Positions 4,841 to 62,789 of a stretch of 64,000 nt of DNA are shown here, one piece after another (positions within the stretch are counted from its first letter, which is position 1; each line of letters begins with the position of its first letter). The stretch spans positions 86,859 through 150,858 of IMG/VR virus record IMGVR_UViG_3300029922_000013; one strand, given 5' to 3'. Made by a program: the position numbers and the translations under genes. The notes under the pieces were generated by a model. It was not told the origin of the DNA. It did no database searches and was given only the letters and a program-made list of their open reading frames with translations. Source of the DNA: a virus.

Positions 4841-7800
4841 TTAGTTACCGATTCTGTAGATGCTTATGGTTGCGGCTACTGGAGCAATAGTAACTGAGCT
4901 ATTTTGGAAAAGAGAAACTGTATCCCCAGCATTTAGTTTTAAAATCGTACCGCCTTGAGCGTATCTATTCACTGCTTGCGTAGTTTCGGCTCTAGAACCA
5001 CCCAAGAGATTGGTAGTCGGTGTAGCTCCACCAGCATTAACTGAAGCGTATCCCTCATAATTTCCATTCACAGCAAAAGCAGTCGCACTAGAAATCAAAG
5101 TACCGTCTGCATGATAAGTGCCACTTTGTGGACAAGTCCAAACGCCAGTGCTCGTATTATACGAATTGGTGGTATCCTCGATCTTGTTCGTAAGGATAAT
5201 TATTCCCGCACTCACGGAAGAACTCGTCGTGTTATACTTCATGGCTACTGTATTGGACCCTGAAGAAGAACTTGAAGACGATCCTCCACCAGAAATGAGT
5301 TCAAACGTTACATAGTTATTCGTAGATGTATTATCTAGAGTAATCGTGTTGCCGGTGCCGTTAGTAACTGTAAGCCACAATAAATCTCCGGCCTGAGCGT
5401 AGAAGGTCGTAGACCCATTAGGGAAAGCTCCAACTGCTGACGTAGTTTGAGCAGAGAATTCCCCAAGTGTAGATGTCGTAGAAACAGACCCAGACTGATT
5501 GGCGGTGAGCTTTATTTGCTGAGACACGGTCATAGTCCCAGTGTTTTGAGTTGTGACAATACCGGTGACCTTCCAATAACCCGTGATCGGAACCGTATAT
5601 TTACCAGTACTAGTCGAATATCCTGCGTTCGTATCGTAAACAGAAGCAGAAAATATAACATTGGTTGTTGCAGTTGTGGCAATGGAAGTATTCGAAGTTG
5701 TGGCTTTTGCAGCTATAGCCCCACTTCCGGAACCTCCCCCACTGCTTCCGCCAGTACCTGCACCGTAGAATTCTTCCACGATGATGATACCTGCAGCTCC
5801 AGTACCCCCAACATATCCAGATCCAGCACCACCACTACCGTTAGTGCCACCTGAACCAATGGCCATCGTATATGTGGGCAATGGATTTGACACAATAGCG
5901 ACAGTCATACCACCGCCACCACCACCTGCTCCCGCCGCGAAGCCAGCCACGTTAGCGAGTGCACCGCTACCACCACCGCCGCTATTAGCGGTGGCATTTA
6001 AGCCGTGCCCAGTAACTGCACTAGAATTTAGTCCACCGCCAGCATAAAGTGGTGAACTACCACCTATACCTCCAGATAAAACGGGTACTGAACCTGATGT
6101 TATCACTTGTTTAGCGCCGCCAACTTGACCACTGAGATTTAAATAACCACCGGTTCCTGCACCGCCAGCTCCGCCATCGTTTGTTCCAGCAGCACTTCCG
6201 CCCGTAGCTGATAACGAAACAGTTCCGCCAGAAAACGTACTGGTACCGCCTCCAGAACCGCCCACCGTTGATGTTGTGCCTGATCCGCCACCGCCACCAC
6301 CACCGCCGACCACAGTAACCCTCAGGTAAGAAGGCGAAGGATTGGATGGGGCCGTATAGGTAGTCCCAGACGTAAGAACTTGAACTGTTGGAGCTTGTGA
6401 GGCAGATGCGGCAGCACTAGTTCCAGGACCAACGTAGAAATCGTCAAGATACAGAGCGAATCCGCCAGCGGGACCAGCTGTTGGATTATAAACTGCTATC
6501 TGAAAACTACCCATATTTGCTGGAGTTTGGAATGATCCCGTACAATAGCCTACACCAGAAATTTGAGTGAAATTGAATACTCCTACGGGAATGATCCAAG
6601 CATTATTTTGGAGATCGTAAATGGCTACCCCAAAAGTATTGCTAGAAGTTCCGGAAAAATTTGTGCCAGTGGAGGTCACGGCACTGTATGCAAAACTAAA
6701 CTGCAAAGTTTTGGATTGATCACAAATGTTTATAGCGACAGCCGGAGAAATGTACATATCCCCAGCATTGGTAGCTCCCGAGGCAGAAAAAGACATGGAA
6801 TATTGACCAGAAAGCTGGCCAGAACTTACAACTGCAGGGGCGTGAGTGTTGGCATTCGCACCAGATCCACCATTAGAAGCAGAAAAGGCAGCATTCCCCG
6901 TTCCCACAGAAGTGGGTAGATTTGTAGAACTAAGAGAGGAATGGGCCAAAGTCCATCCACTGACGTTGTCGTCTTCGAAAGTATTTCCGATAGCCAAATA
7001 GTTTCTACCCAAAACTGGTAAGTTCAACAACTGCCAGTTCCCAGCTTGATAATCGGCTTCAAAACTTACTGAGGAAGAAGTGAACGAAGAAGTTAGAGCG
7101 ATCCAAACATCTTTGTTATAGGTGACACAATTTCCGATAACGTACGGGAAACTTGCAGCCCAAGGATTTAATCCCCCGCTACTTCCTGAACCACCAGTCA
7201 GCAACCAGGCCCCATTTCCGCTATCAGCAGCAGTATCATACGTAAAGATGAAGGTACTGCCCACTGGCATTGTTACGTTTGCCCCGGTTCCAGTTAAAAT
7301 GTTGGTCGGACCAGTAGGAGAATGGTTATTTACGATGGTAGCAAGATTAGAACTTTGATTTGAAATAGTGATCGTTTGTCCATTGGTACCGGTAGGAATG
7401 CCGCTAAAAGTTGTTCCAGATGCAACAGTAGTCAAACGAACAAAGTTGTAGTTCTGGTCCCCAGAAGTTAGGGTCTGATTGGTTCCGCTATAGGAAGTAG
7501 CATCAGTAAAGGCATTGATAATAGTGGAAGCAAGAGCTACCCAAACGCCATTAGTGGTCGTGTTACTTTCCAGTTTTACTATGATAGATGCGCTAGGTTT
7601 TACGGTAAAAAGAGTGGTACCGCCATTATTGTTGATAGTCAAAATTCCAGTTGAAGTATTGTAGAATTCAAACTTTGCCCCACCTGGATTGCCGGAAGGG
7701 GCAGTTGGAAGAGAAAAGGTTGTAGCGTCTGGCAACTGAAATATTTGGGTTGTTGATCCCGTTAGAATCTCAATCTGCGGAGAAAAGTTAGTAAGGGTTG

Positions 7801-58909: not shown

Positions 58910-58958
58910 ACCCCCATATTCCACTAAGTGAACCAAAAAGTCAAGCTTAAAATAAAGG

Positions 58959-58987
58959 TTGACAAATGCAACATATAAGGATATCCT
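58959..58987 (+). promoter_or_regulatory. Sigma70-like promoter of the rightward operon/structured RNA
   Basis: TTGACA (58959-58964) and TATCCT (58982-58987) are separated by 17 bases. The expected start near 58994 coincides with the first base of the closing helix of the structured RNA. Confidence 0.62.
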
Positions 58988-58993
58988 GTACTA

Positions 58994-59181
58994 GAGATGA
59001 GCGGAATGTTAGATGTGAGAGCGGGACGGCGTTAAAGAGGTTAAAGCCCTCAGGTTCAAGAGTAATTACTTGACGGCCGTAAACAGCTCACTGGAAATAC
59101 TCACCGGCCATTGTCGGCGATAGGGAATAATTGGCGCCTACTGAATACCTATCAAAGCTAGCGTAGCGACTAGCCCATCTC
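58994..59181 (+). ncRNA. Long structured RNA (leader or free ncRNA)
   Basis: About 190 bases without an open frame fold on paper into a closed multi-helix structure. The outer stem is GAGATG/CATCTC (58994-58999, 59176-59181). A nested arm has GTGAG/CTCAC (59015, 59087), ACGGC/GCCGT (59026, 59076), GAGG/CCTC (59037, 59048) and TCAAG/CTTGA (59056, 59069). A second arm is GATAGG/CCTATC (59119, 59148), and a third hairpin is GCTAG/CTAGC (59157, 59170). CGCTTTT follows the closing stem. It starts at a good promoter and ends 18 bases before the next ATG. I do not recognise a known class. Confidence 0.62.
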
Positions 59182-59199
59182 GCTTTTAAAGGAAGAAAC

Positions 59200-59454
59200 A
59201 TGACCCTAATAGAAATTTTGGAAGAGCTTACAAATTACTGTGCCCTGAACACTTCTGAACGAATAGAATTAGATCTTCTCTTACCTGGAACAGTTTTGGA
59301 AGCCTGGAATCACAGTATGCGTCCTATAATGATCTATAATCCTGGAACTCCTTCTGATATGACTCCTACGATATCGGGCACTATCTACGGAACAGGCGGA
59401 ATCGTCAGACTCCACAGACAAGAATTCGTGGAAGTTAGAGATAAAAATAGTTGA
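59200..59454 (+). CDS. Hypothetical small protein
   Basis: The 84-residue product has GGAAG ahead of its ATG. It has a helical start (TLIEILEELTNYCALNTSERIELDLLLPG) and a Gly/Thr-rich beta end. It is the first gene after the structured RNA. The family is not recognised. Confidence 0.6.
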   Translation: MTLIEILEELTNYCALNTSERIELDLLLPGTVLEAWNHSMRPIMIYNPGTPSDMTPTISGTIYGTGGIVRLHRQEFVEVRDKNS

Positions 59455-59478
59455 CTTTTAAAAATAGTATGGTATCGT
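59451..59478 (+). promoter_or_regulatory. Sigma70-like promoter
   Basis: TTGACT (59451-59456) overlaps the stop of the preceding gene; TATCGT (59473-59478) follows after 16 bases. It drives the hairpin element and the gene at 59569. Confidence 0.55.
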
Positions 59479-59509
59479 AGTTTTGTGATCATGGAAGACC
59501 ACAACAAAG

Positions 59510-59560
59510 CAGCGGATGTCCTTGGCCCGCATCCTTGGGTGTCCGCTGTGTAAATTTTTG
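59510..59560 (+). terminator. Attenuator-like hairpin or small-RNA terminator
   Basis: CAGCGGATGTCC (59510-59521) pairs with GGGTGTCCGCTG (59537-59548) over 12 positions including three G-U pairs, with a 15-base loop. It is followed by TGTAAATTTTT. Lying between a promoter and the gene at 59569, it would release a transcript of about 75 bases, or act as an attenuator. The T tract is interrupted by AAA, so efficiency is uncertain. Confidence 0.55.
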
Positions 59561-59568
59561 GAGGTAGT

Positions 59569-59934
59569 ATGTCTAATCTAGTCAAACATGCAGAACAAGA
59601 AATGCGAATCGCTGGCCTTTATGATGAAGGCGCTGATTATGATGGCATGATTCCAGATGCTGTCGTAGAAATTGTCAAGGTATTCGCAGCTCAAGGACAT
59701 TCCGGCATGTCTGCTTCTATTGTAACTTCCATTCTAGAAAGAGTCCTAAGATATAAGGTTCTTGAACCCATCAATTCAGATCCTCAATATTGGATGGAAG
59801 TTTCTGCTGAACAAATGGGCAGAGCGGGAGTTTGGCAATCCACTAGAGATCCTGGCTTCTTCTCAGAGGACGGTGGAACTACATTTTACAGTTTGGATGA
59901 CCCAGAAAAGAAGAATTGGCCAAAGAGGTTCTAA
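59569..59934 (+). CDS. Conserved phage hypothetical protein
   Basis: The 121-residue product has SD GGAGG. Its sequence MSNLVKHAEQEMRIAGLYDEGADYDGMI...VFAAQGHSGMSASIVTSILERVL belongs to a type I know from many unrelated phages, with the invariant 'AQGHSGMSA' helix. The second half is variable. No function is established. It lies downstream of an attenuator-like hairpin. Confidence 0.7.
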   Translation: MSNLVKHAEQEMRIAGLYDEGADYDGMIPDAVVEIVKVFAAQGHSGMSASIVTSILERVLRYKVLEPINSDPQYWMEVSAEQMGRAGVWQSTRDPGFFSEDGGTTFYSLDDPEKKNWPKRF

Positions 59935-60559: not shown

Positions 60560-60804
60560 CCCAAGAAGACCTAAAGTTTCTAGAAGAAGTGATCTCCAAG
60601 GCATCTCCTAAATTTGGACCTTACACGTCTAATTACCCTTTCTATGCGGACGTTACCAAACCTGCTCCTAGCATGTCCAAGCACGACCACGAAAGACCTA
60701 CGTACTGGCGTATAGAAGACGCTGTGTTTATAGCTGTCGCCCGTGAGTTCCTACCGAAATTGGTAGAAGAAGTTAAAAGGCTTCAAAAGGTAGAGAATGC
60801 CTAG
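60556..60804 (+). CDS. Hypothetical small protein
   Basis: The 82-residue product has a Pro/Tyr-rich middle (GPYTSNYPFYADVTKPAPSM) and a C-terminal helix (FIAVAREFLPKLVEEVKRL). It overlaps the following 58-residue gene by eight bases. Confidence 0.55.
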   Translation: MTQEDLKFLEEVISKASPKFGPYTSNYPFYADVTKPAPSMSKHDHERPTYWRIEDAVFIAVAREFLPKLVEEVKRLQKVENA

Positions 60805-60973
60805 ACTCGTGTATACTCAAGAAGACTTGGGTAAGATGGACCATGAAGTATATGAACACTTAATGTTCGCCATCAATACTCGTTTTTGGCATATGCTAGG
60901 GATTGACTGGAAAACGTATATAGAGTACTACCAAGACCCGGTAACCAAAGAAATGGTGATTGAATGGGAATGA
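60797..60973 (+). CDS. Very small hypothetical protein
   Basis: The 58-residue frame starts at ATG 60797 with AGAG upstream. The product is helical with several aromatic residues (FWHMLGIDWKTYIEYY). It overlaps genes on both sides. Confidence 0.52.
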   Translation: MPRLVYTQEDLGKMDHEVYEHLMFAINTRFWHMLGIDWKTYIEYYQDPVTKEMVIEWE

Positions 60974-61098
60974 AAGTACATAAACACTTGACTTCTGGAA
61001 TAACTCATTGTATGCTGGGCTTAGGAACAAAGCCAATTTGGATTACTCTTCATTGGACCAACGTAACGTGTAAGAAGTGTCTTGGGAGGAAGAAATGA
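60970..61098 (+). CDS. Very small protein with CxxC tail
   Basis: This 42-residue frame starts at ATG 60970, overlapping the previous stop (ATGA); an ATG six bases earlier is in frame. It is rich in His, Trp and Thr (HKHLTSGITHCM, WITLHWTNVTCKKC) and ends with CKKCLGRKK, which could complete a zinc site with the internal His/Cys. Confidence 0.5.
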   Translation: MKVHKHLTSGITHCMLGLGTKPIWITLHWTNVTCKKCLGRKK

Positions 61099-61337
61099 AT
61101 AAACTAATTTTGTTTATTATTTTAGTGTCTATGCCGGTTCTTGCCGAAGAACGATACTACCACTACATGGACTGTGTTAAGGTTGTGAGTGGATTTTTTG
61201 AAGGATGTAAAGGCAAAACGGTAAGTTGGCGCTATGTGGGTGAAGTTACCTACAGTGTAGAGTTGCAGTGCAAAGGACATTCCACAATTGAAAGTTTTAT
61301 AAGTTTGGATCTTAGGCCAGCTAAAGGATGTTTATAA
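61095..61337 (+). CDS. Secreted Cys-containing small protein
   Basis: I start it at MNKLILFII (61095), behind GGGAGGAAG. The 80-residue product has a clear signal peptide with a cleavage site after PVLA. The mature part of about 63 residues has four cysteines and is beta-rich, so it is probably a disulfide-bonded periplasmic protein. The function is unknown. Confidence 0.62.
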   Translation: MNKLILFIILVSMPVLAEERYYHYMDCVKVVSGFFEGCKGKTVSWRYVGEVTYSVELQCKGHSTIESFISLDLRPAKGCL

Positions 61338-61340
61338 TAT

Positions 61341-61487
61341 ATGAAAACACTAGTAATTGCGACACAAGGTATTTTGTTAGGCGTAGGTATTCAGGGTCTA
61401 TTCGAGTCAAATCCTCGCTTATGGCTAGCTATTATAATTCTAAATCCAGTGCTGACATGCGTATATTCGCTGTTGGATAGGAAATAG
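61341..61487 (+). CDS. Small membrane protein
   Basis: The 48-residue frame starts at ATG 61341. It has two short hydrophobic segments (about 3-19 and 27-44) and ends DRK. It is tightly spaced between neighbouring genes. It could be a small holin-like or envelope peptide. Confidence 0.5.
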   Translation: MKTLVIATQGILLGVGIQGLFESNPRLWLAIIILNPVLTCVYSLLDRK

Positions 61488-61489
61488 AT

Positions 61490-61702
61490 ATGGCCAAAAC
61501 AACAACCGCAAAAGAACTTCTTGACTTTTTAGAACAAGTAGTACATGATGGTTATGGTGAAGCGGAAGTCCTGCTCGATACTGAAGCTAGAACTTTTGAT
61601 TATCATATGGCTAAAGTAGGTAGAGCTTACGTAAATAACGAAACCGATCCAGAGTATCCATTCGTAAGTTTACATGAACAAAGAAACATTAAAGGAGAAT
61701 AA
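61490..61702 (+). CDS. Hypothetical small protein
   Basis: The 70-residue acidic alpha/beta product (TTAKELLDFLEQVVHDGYGEAEVLLDTE) resembles small phage proteins with a helix then a strand carrying V-L-L-D. It starts two bases after the previous stop. The function is unknown. Confidence 0.58.
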   Translation: MAKTTTAKELLDFLEQVVHDGYGEAEVLLDTEARTFDYHMAKVGRAYVNNETDPEYPFVSLHEQRNIKGE

Positions 61703-61703
61703 A

Positions 61704-61949
61704 ATGGCACGCAGATACAACTTTCCAAATCGTAAAGAAGCCCGTAAAGCATCAGCACAAACTAGACAAGAAGCCTCAGATAAGCTCACTACAGAACAAA
61801 AGCTGGCTAAAGCTACTCCTGGTTCTAGGGAGTACAATAGGCTTCTAACCAAGGTAGGGACGGTGCCTAAGCCTAACAAGAAGTCTAAGAATAAGGCTTT
61901 AGACGCACTTGCAGTAGAAACCGAAAATCTAGGTGTGGAGTTTAAGTAA
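61704..61949 (+). CDS. Small basic hypothetical protein
   Basis: I start it at MARRYNFPN (61704), behind AAAGGAGAA. The 81-residue product is highly basic and polar, with a Lys/Asn-rich stretch (PKPNKKSKNKAL). It could bind nucleic acid. The family is not recognised. Confidence 0.6.
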   Translation: MARRYNFPNRKEARKASAQTRQEASDKLTTEQKLAKATPGSREYNRLLTKVGTVPKPNKKSKNKALDALAVETENLGVEFK

Positions 61950-61950
61950 T

Positions 61951-62262
61951 ATGATCACTAACAATACACAAATGACAACTACCCCAGCTAAGCTCAGTCC
62001 GGAAAATTTTTGCTATTGGCTTCAAGGCCTATTTGAGCTGACAGATACGGTAGCATTAACCGAAAAACAAGTAAAACAAATCAAAGACCATCTTGGATAT
62101 GTATTTAACACAGTCCATGTTCCAACCACTGTAACTATTGCAACACCTCCAGCTTCTCCCTACCTTCCTGGTTATGGTGGGCCTACATCTGGTACCACTA
62201 CTATCTCTTGTGGAAATATTCTCGATAGTGGTACATTACCTTTCATCTCTACAGTTTGTTAA
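61951..62262 (+). CDS. Conserved phage hypothetical protein
   Basis: I start it at MITNNTQM (61951). The 103-residue product carries KLSPENFCYWLQGLFEL...LTEKQVKQIKDHLGYVF, a short helical motif that I have seen in proteins of many unrelated phages, followed by a variable Pro/Gly/Thr-rich tail. The function is unknown. Confidence 0.68.
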   Translation: MITNNTQMTTTPAKLSPENFCYWLQGLFELTDTVALTEKQVKQIKDHLGYVFNTVHVPTTVTIATPPASPYLPGYGGPTSGTTTISCGNILDSGTLPFISTVC

Positions 62263-62274
62263 AAAGGAGTAAAT

Positions 62275-62496
62275 ATGTCAGAACGTGCAAAGAAAGTATT
62301 CGAAAGTCGTGGGTTAGATGGTCAGGAAGAGCACATGGCTCGCATTAAAGCTGCTGCGGAAGTACTTTGGGACGAACTAGATAACATTTCTGTTTATCCT
62401 GGTAATTCTGAAGGGATGCGTTTGATTAGTTTGGCCAAGACTTCTTTGGAGCAGACTGTCATGTGGGGCGTTAAATCGCTATCGAGGAATCACTAA
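62275..62496 (+). CDS. Hypothetical small helical protein
   Basis: The 73-residue product has SD AAAGGAG. It is helical (MARIKAAAEVLWDELDNI; MRLISLAKTSLEQTVMWGVK). This type of small protein, often with Arg-Leu-x-x-Leu-Ala-x-T-x-L-E near the end, is common in phages. The function is unknown. Confidence 0.6.
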   Translation: MSERAKKVFESRGLDGQEEHMARIKAAAEVLWDELDNISVYPGNSEGMRLISLAKTSLEQTVMWGVKSLSRNH

Positions 62497-62789
62497 TGAA
62501 AGACTACGAGAACGAGCTAAGTATTGTAAGGGAAGCTCTCGCAAAAAGTATGGAGAGTTTTATAGGTGAAAAGCTTACGTCAGCAGCATTAGTAGATATA
62601 GAACACGTTATCCTAATGCAGCTTCACGACCTAATTAGTAGGGGGATCGTCTCCAATCCTAAATTGCCAGTAGTTAGGGTTAAGTCTAACAATGTGGACA
62701 GAAGCGTATCCGTAAAATTCTTCGATTCAGATACAAACGAAGAAATATCACTACAAGATTTGCTTTTAGAGGAGAAGATAGGAACATGA
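62496..62789 (+). CDS. Hypothetical small protein
   Basis: In this 97-residue product the N-terminal half is helical and the C-terminal half has strands (PVVRVKSNNVDRSVSVKFFD). It overlaps the previous stop by one base and the next start by four. Confidence 0.58.
   Translation: MKDYENELSIVREALAKSMESFIGEKLTSAALVDIEHVILMQLHDLISRGIVSNPKLPVVRVKSNNVDRSVSVKFFDSDTNEEISLQDLLLEEKIGT

Follow-up and report, generated by a model that had tools for sequence, protein, structure and literature searches.

The window (64,000 nt, bases 86859–150858 of a 150,858-bp virus record; the virus is referred to as G000) contains a 290-nt spacer at 58910–59199, with a leftward gene on one side and a rightward gene, starting at 59200, on the other. 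The spacer is home to the RNA element described here, and the gene layout around it bears out the original prediction that the element lies between divergent operons. The element had also been described as free of reading frames, and this holds: the two ORFs that cross it score negative for coding, and no support was found for a short leader ORF (ATG at 58998, 12 codons). The features of the locus are collected in Table 1.

The predicted promoter is present and was the top-ranked of the 8 promoter-like sites found in a scan of 57–61 kb, although the scan overall was not above chance (7.2 sites expected). The promoter draws support from conservation in G005, a related phage, whose corresponding spacer retains the divergent promoter block; the block, which stops at the −10 box (TATCCT/TAGCCT), has 39 identical bases out of 55. 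From the promoter position, transcription is predicted to start at about 58994; no transcript has been seen. As to the claim that the transcript begins exactly at the 5′ strand of the closing helix, the helix is there and the start is predicted, not shown.

The Tad3 and Acb2/Tad1 families, both represented in the rightward operon, are known inhibitors of nucleotide-signalling defence. The evidence supports the window RNA as the part of an early anti-defence operon that is transcribed first, with the anti-defence context shown for the window phage alone. The rightward early operon is an anti-defence island, and the small genes between the Tad3 and Acb2/Tad1 genes are candidate further inhibitors. 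The stretch 59451–59568 carries a second promoter-like site (TTGACT-16-TATCGT) and a 12–13-bp hairpin (about 59509–59552) followed by TTTTT, before the Tad3 Shine-Dalgarno sequence (−25.8 kcal/mol for the 90-nt leader); this is a possible attenuator or protective leader. Outside the window, a 588-aa gene at 60781–62547 of G000 has, by its first residues alone, the look of a GroEL-type chaperonin, with homologues in the relatives G005, G006 and G002.

Table 1. Positions in the window of the RNA element, its parts and the surrounding features, with the basis of each assignment
Feature	Position	Strand	Basis
Promoter TTGACA-17-TATCCT, sigma70-type	58959–58987	+	Motif scan; kept at the syntenic G005 site
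Structured RNA element, ~188 nt	58994–59181	+	Model R1 finds G005 relatives; model R2 ranks the element first in 15–64 kb of the window
P1, 5′ strand GAGAUG	58994–58999	+	Pairs with 59176–59181; helix covaries across the family
P2, 5′ strand GAAUG	59004–59008	+	Partner 59098–59102; counterpart of family GCGUG/CACGC
Conserved internal loop, 5′ side UUAGAU (family GAAAGCU)	59009–59014	+	Alignment of P3-type members
P3, 5′ strand GUGAG	59015–59019	+	Pairs with 59087–59091; covariation of P3 across 9 members, with every cell paired
Distal P3 arm	59020–59086	+	Stems 59026–59030/59076–59080, 59037–59040/59048–59051, 59057–59060/59069–59072; energy folding only
P3, 3′ strand CUCAC	59087–59091	+	Pairs with 59015–59019
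Conserved internal loop, 3′ side UGGAAA (family URGAGA)	59092–59097	+	P3-type alignment and R1 alignment
P2, 3′ strand UACUC	59098–59102	+	Pairs with 59004–59008
Variable middle	59104–59153	+	Predicted hairpins 59104–59117, 59119–59153; energy folding only; region hypervariable in the family
P8 hairpin GCUAG-CGUAGCGA-CUAGC, signature loop GUAGCG	59157–59174	+	R1/R2 matches and family alignment
P1, 3′ strand CAUCUC	59176–59181	+	Family covariation
First rightward gene, 84 aa, unmatched in Pfam and PHROG	59200–59454	+	ORF and profile searches
Tad3-like Thoeris inhibitor gene	59569–59934	+	PF25185, E = 1.1e-31
Acb2/Tad1-like cyclic-nucleotide sponge gene (hairpin-domain protein)	62275–62496	+	PF24729, E = 2.5e-11

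Relatives of the window element

A terminase search returned seven relatives of the virus, among which G005 (164,830 bp) is the most complete and has most structural genes in common with it. A covariance model built from the window sequence alone (R1) and searched over 409 kb of virus sequence matched two places in G005, 75270–75452 on the minus strand (E = 6.9e-5) and 146–364 on the plus strand (E = 0.02). The minus-strand match belongs to a tandem array (75042–75645) with two clear copies and a third that is possible, in which a TGTGATATAA-like (promoter-like) motif stands before each member and each has its own P1 (GGCAG/CUGCC, GGCGG/CCGCC). The plus-strand copy has TTGACA..TATAAT upstream and closes with P1 GUAGAG/CUCUAC. 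The closing helix predicted for the window element is not only present but is matched elsewhere by homologous helices paired with wholly different sequences. The spacer of G005 that is syntenic with 58910–59199 carries no RNA element, the gene beginning about 25 nt later, and on this sequence comparison the element is one that was gained in one lineage or lost in the other. The first RNA of the G005 array, B1 (75476–75645; L029:15476–15645, minus), has the P1 GGCGG/CCGCC and GGAAGCC..UGGAGA motifs and was missed by the family model R2 described below; it is a candidate that may have diverged further or been rearranged.

Comparison of the element with phages and plasmids by blastn gave nothing beyond chance, and its exact 30-nt core was found in IMG/VR in the same virus only. 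A search with the flanking proteins returned, apart from this virus, G005 and a single unrelated contig that carries a Tad3 relative. Using the common 3′ hairpin as a pattern retrieved 12 IMG/VR stretches, nearly all of which share the plan by eye, and the compact forms match sequenced phage isolates. The element had been said to match no riboswitch, RNase P, tmRNA, 6S RNA or group I intron core; in Rfam 15 nothing matches it at the gathering level, and the lists at E ≤ 10 contain only chance matches. When Rfam was run on the window, the rest of G000 and 10 loci of other members, a single ordinary tRNA elsewhere was the only result, and ARAGORN and Rfam detected no tRNA or tmRNA in the window.

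The P1-P2-P8 family

An exact 18-nt probe for the compact P2 hairpin (GCGTGGAAAGCNGACACGC) was sufficient to find at least 120 viral contig stretches in IMG/VR, with conserved loops and strongly covarying stems, of an RNA that is absent from Rfam 15; a probe one base longer found 37 matches in GTDB genomes. Among the 156 matches with enough flank to be testable, 124 are followed by both P8 (5-bp stem, GUAGCG-type loop) and P1′ (at least 5 pairs), compared with 6 of 780 controls in which the downstream sequence was shuffled. The consensus runs from P1 (5–16 bp, of any sequence) through CG and P2 (GCGUG GAAAGCAGA CACGC, with the loop GAAAGC/AGA) to a variable middle (about 40–200 nt), then A and P8 (GCCGG AGUAGCGN CCGGC, with the loop GUAGCG), which directly abuts P1′. 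The P2 loop is often interrupted by a further arm, P3, which sits between GAAAGCU and URGAGA; the window element has this form, as do members in G005 and in several more phages.

Changes on both sides of the helix were observed in 9 of 10 P1 pairs and 4 of 5 P8 pairs among 56 compact members; as pairing was partly a criterion for selecting these members, the 124 of 156 above is the fair test. In nine P3-type members, including the window element, 97.6% of the cells are paired and 13 of 19 pairs show two-sided changes, against 31–46% paired in slid controls. This alignment comprises conserved segments assembled by hand, and because its helices were picked by inspection the comparison with slid controls favors them; the compensatory changes themselves are real. 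Conserved pairing of one end of the middle with the other did not exceed that of shuffles, the ACC after P1′ (considered as a CCA-like end) shows a weak bias only, and no shared sequence was seen in the flanks of the members.

Most carrying phages have one copy and some have two or three. Members occur in isolates that infect Pseudomonas aeruginosa (phage Persinger), P. syringae, Ochrobactrum and Synechococcus (among them Yong-M3-232, a phage of strain PCC 7002). A consensus-like query gave no match in E. coli genomes. In one sampled bacterial family only the starting genome among 79 carries a member, which makes the RNA a sporadic feature of chromosomes. The folded RNAs make up an uncatalogued family whose carriers, phages as well as prophages, number well over a hundred. 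No description of the sequence or the family was found in open-access papers, with subscription papers and most preprints outside the search. It is the RNA class that would be new, its mechanism being unproven, and prior description is not excluded.

To place the window element relative to this family, a second covariance model (R2) was built from the 56 members of other phages, with no G000 or G005 sequence. R2 recovers the same two G005 copies as R1 (E = 1.8e-4 and 1.1e-9) and, over 397 kb, ranks the window element third, with E = 6.7e-3 and a score of 23.5 bits; the element is also the best hit in 15–64 kb of the window (49 kb) when the filters are off (E = 8e-4). Detection relies mainly on P8 and P1′, and the 5′ end is misplaced. 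P8 of the window element is preceded by A at 59156 and fits the 5-bp hairpin with an 8-nt loop (NGUMGYGN), and a single C separates it from P1′; P2 forms 4 of its 5 pairs, with one A.C mismatch, and its loop (UUAGAU/UGGAAA) partially matches the family GAAAGC ... (G)AGA, with the P3 arm present. With P1, P3 and P8 in agreement and P2 carrying a mismatch and a differing loop, the window element is very probably a divergent, P3-bearing member, an assignment made from sequence alone.

The original prediction would have been refuted by a lack of covariation in homologues or by a significant hit to an ordinary coding sequence. Neither was encountered: many phages have homologues with compensatory changes, there is no coding hit and, in the absence of an Rfam family, a phage noncoding RNA of unknown class, made early, remains the supported description. 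A nested multi-stem fold exists, with pair probabilities of about 0.55–0.82. In energy, however, it is no different from shuffled sequences (z 0.06; −0.4 for 58994–59181), so folding alone would have established nothing. Of the at least seven nested stems proposed, P1, P3, P8 and (with its one mismatch) P2 are backed by relatives, and the other internal stems are predictions only. The energies are what would be expected if the element were non-functional intergenic DNA folding by chance, an explanation rendered barely credible by the homologues and their covariation and by a composition that is coding-free yet purine-rich and higher in G+C than the flanking spacer. Chance folding would be refuted by covariation, which is observed here, and it is homology, not energy, that rescues the structured-RNA reading.

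Genomic contexts and rival explanations

The gene downstream lies on the opposite strand in 21 of the 52 testable copies (about 40%), and 20 of the 52 lie between two same-strand genes. The neighbors are unrelated (TerL, endolysin, amidase, RecE and homing endonucleases), tandem copies and copies without a same-strand downstream gene exist, and in L059 (Persinger) and L051 a terminator-like hairpin follows the copy. The opposite-strand next genes and the differing neighbors make a trans-acting, processed RNA likelier than a leader and, together with the Persinger hairpin, favor an RNA that is cut from, or made apart from, the surrounding transcript. We consider that the family RNA probably acts in trans, with no transcript yet seen; that the window element belongs to the family and is also a trans-acting RNA, taken jointly, is held at somewhat better than even confidence on the same footing.

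A long regulatory leader for the rightward operon, the alternative originally offered, remains possible for the window copy, which ends 18 nt before the ATG with no clear terminator, and is disfavored for the family by the strand counts above and by the hairpins after the Persinger and L051 copies. The closing P1 and conserved loops look aptamer-like and, with the short gap and the copies between same-strand genes, they would suit a cis riboswitch, attenuator or translational leader of the 84-aa first gene. Across copies, however, there is no consistent downstream gene or strand, as a riboswitch would have, nor a consistent expression platform after P1′, and the tandem copies and those lacking a same-strand downstream gene are hard to reconcile with a leader, which we regard as quite unlikely. 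Antitermination in cis, with the nascent RNA binding polymerase after the early promoter and reading through early-operon terminators, is also unlikely. Its precedents are the HK022 put RNAs (putL and putR), which are ~70 nt with two stem-loops (PMC9378689) and share with the window element a position just after an early promoter and hairpins with conserved bases (PMC9378689). The window copy begins at the predicted early-operon transcript start, and the copies of PotUPM1, Orimi01 and D14H are likewise found in early regions, close to repressor or control genes. The put RNAs differ in acting in cis, with antitermination through the beta′ zinc-binding domain, and in having neither a closing stem nor the 40–200-nt variable middle, and the window element (188 nt, multi-branched) does not meet the description of two stem-loops within ~70 nt. 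The family, moreover, occurs in many genomic contexts, with copies beside TerL or lysis genes, copies followed by an opposite-strand gene and, in Persinger, a copy that ends in a terminator-like hairpin.

G005 lacks the element at the syntenic site but has copies in other places, and homing endonuclease or HNH genes adjoin some copies, which raises the question of a mobile or self-processing RNA (intron-like or ribozyme) that inserts between genes and whose conserved parts serve its spread or cleavage. As copies lie between genes and not inside them, with no common flanking sequence seen and no match to an Rfam intron or ribozyme model, this is improbable. A retron-like reading of the paired ends was rejected, as no reverse transcriptase was seen among the neighboring genes. 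The T4 stable RNAs C and D (species 1 and 2; rnaC and rnaD), a known yet unexplained class, are phage RNAs of 119–139 nt that both lie beside tRNA genes; a GUAGCG motif occurs in rnaC, which holds GAGUAGCGU twice, and an rnaD hairpin loop is complementary to GUAGCG. The match of R2 to the T4 region is not significant (7.2 bits, E = 7) and the P1-P2-P8 arrangement was not found there, so that even a distant relationship is very improbable and the kinship was rejected. Within T4 itself (L063; rnaC 1909–2047, rnaD 2054–2172), the rnaD hairpin loop GUCGCUA is complementary to the rnaC GAGUAGCGU, so that a kissing contact between the two RNAs is possible. GOLLD, ROOL and other large ornate RNAs are structured RNAs of unknown function that are often phage-borne and sometimes accompanied by tRNAs. 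Their structures have been reported (PMC12286853); they are much larger than the P1-P2-P8 RNAs, and their Rfam models give no match.

tRNA links and a possible role

The preferred reading, a trans-acting RNA of the P1-P2-P8 family, leaves its role to be inferred. To our knowledge, few phage noncoding RNAs have a defined function. The family shares the connectivity of tRNA (acceptor–2 nt–D arm–...–T arm–0 nt–acceptor): a closing stem, a 2-nt linker, an arm, a middle and a 5-bp arm abutting the closing stem. Some members have same-strand tRNA neighbors and a few have tRNA-like middles. The likeness has clear limits, as a P1 of 5–16 bp is not the length of an acceptor stem, the loops are unlike D and T loops, and no member matches a tRNA model except for the tRNA inserted in L055. 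There (7014–7179, minus), a whole predicted tRNA with no clear anticodon lies inside the variable middle. A T-arm motif is present in 10 of 131 family middles, against 1.5 expected, and tRNA density near members is about double that of the control (17 tRNAs in 118 kb of flanks versus 17 in 210 kb), a modest enrichment. Phage tRNAs counter tRNA-cutting defenses (PMC13096335).

In the mechanism that we infer, the RNA would either be excised from an operon transcript or arise from a promoter of its own, and would persist as a stable molecule acting in trans. Its conserved P2/P8 part, with tRNA connectivity, would bind a widely conserved host RNA-handling or defense component, leaving the middle unconstrained; it might serve, for instance, as a decoy or scaffold against defense that targets tRNA or RNA. 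An RNA decoy or ribonucleoprotein core with a counter-defense or takeover role is our best guess because of the signs of trans action, the tRNA links and the anti-defense operon, the last of which provides a first functional hypothesis. The decoy or counter-defense role is nevertheless held with low confidence, its mechanism being inferred. The more detailed version, in which a tRNA-topology core of P1, P2 and P8 captures the conserved host component and the middle is exchangeable, with a tRNA-like insert in some phages, is equally speculative, and it is a possibility, no more, that a new RNA class spread over phages of several bacterial phyla is a counter-defense or host-takeover factor. The RNA may be a phage weapon whose exact target has not been identified. 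Because members occur in isolated phages, its function is directly testable.

Long early-region spacers without annotated genes were noted in Pseudomonas phage Medea1 (L224:2171–2960), Aurca01 (L226:1898–2830) and phiAH14a (L225:2229–2540). They seem to carry RNA arrays whose members are each closed by a long, perfectly paired stem and, in phiAH14a, a tRNA-like sequence lies within an 18-bp stem, adjoining a family member.
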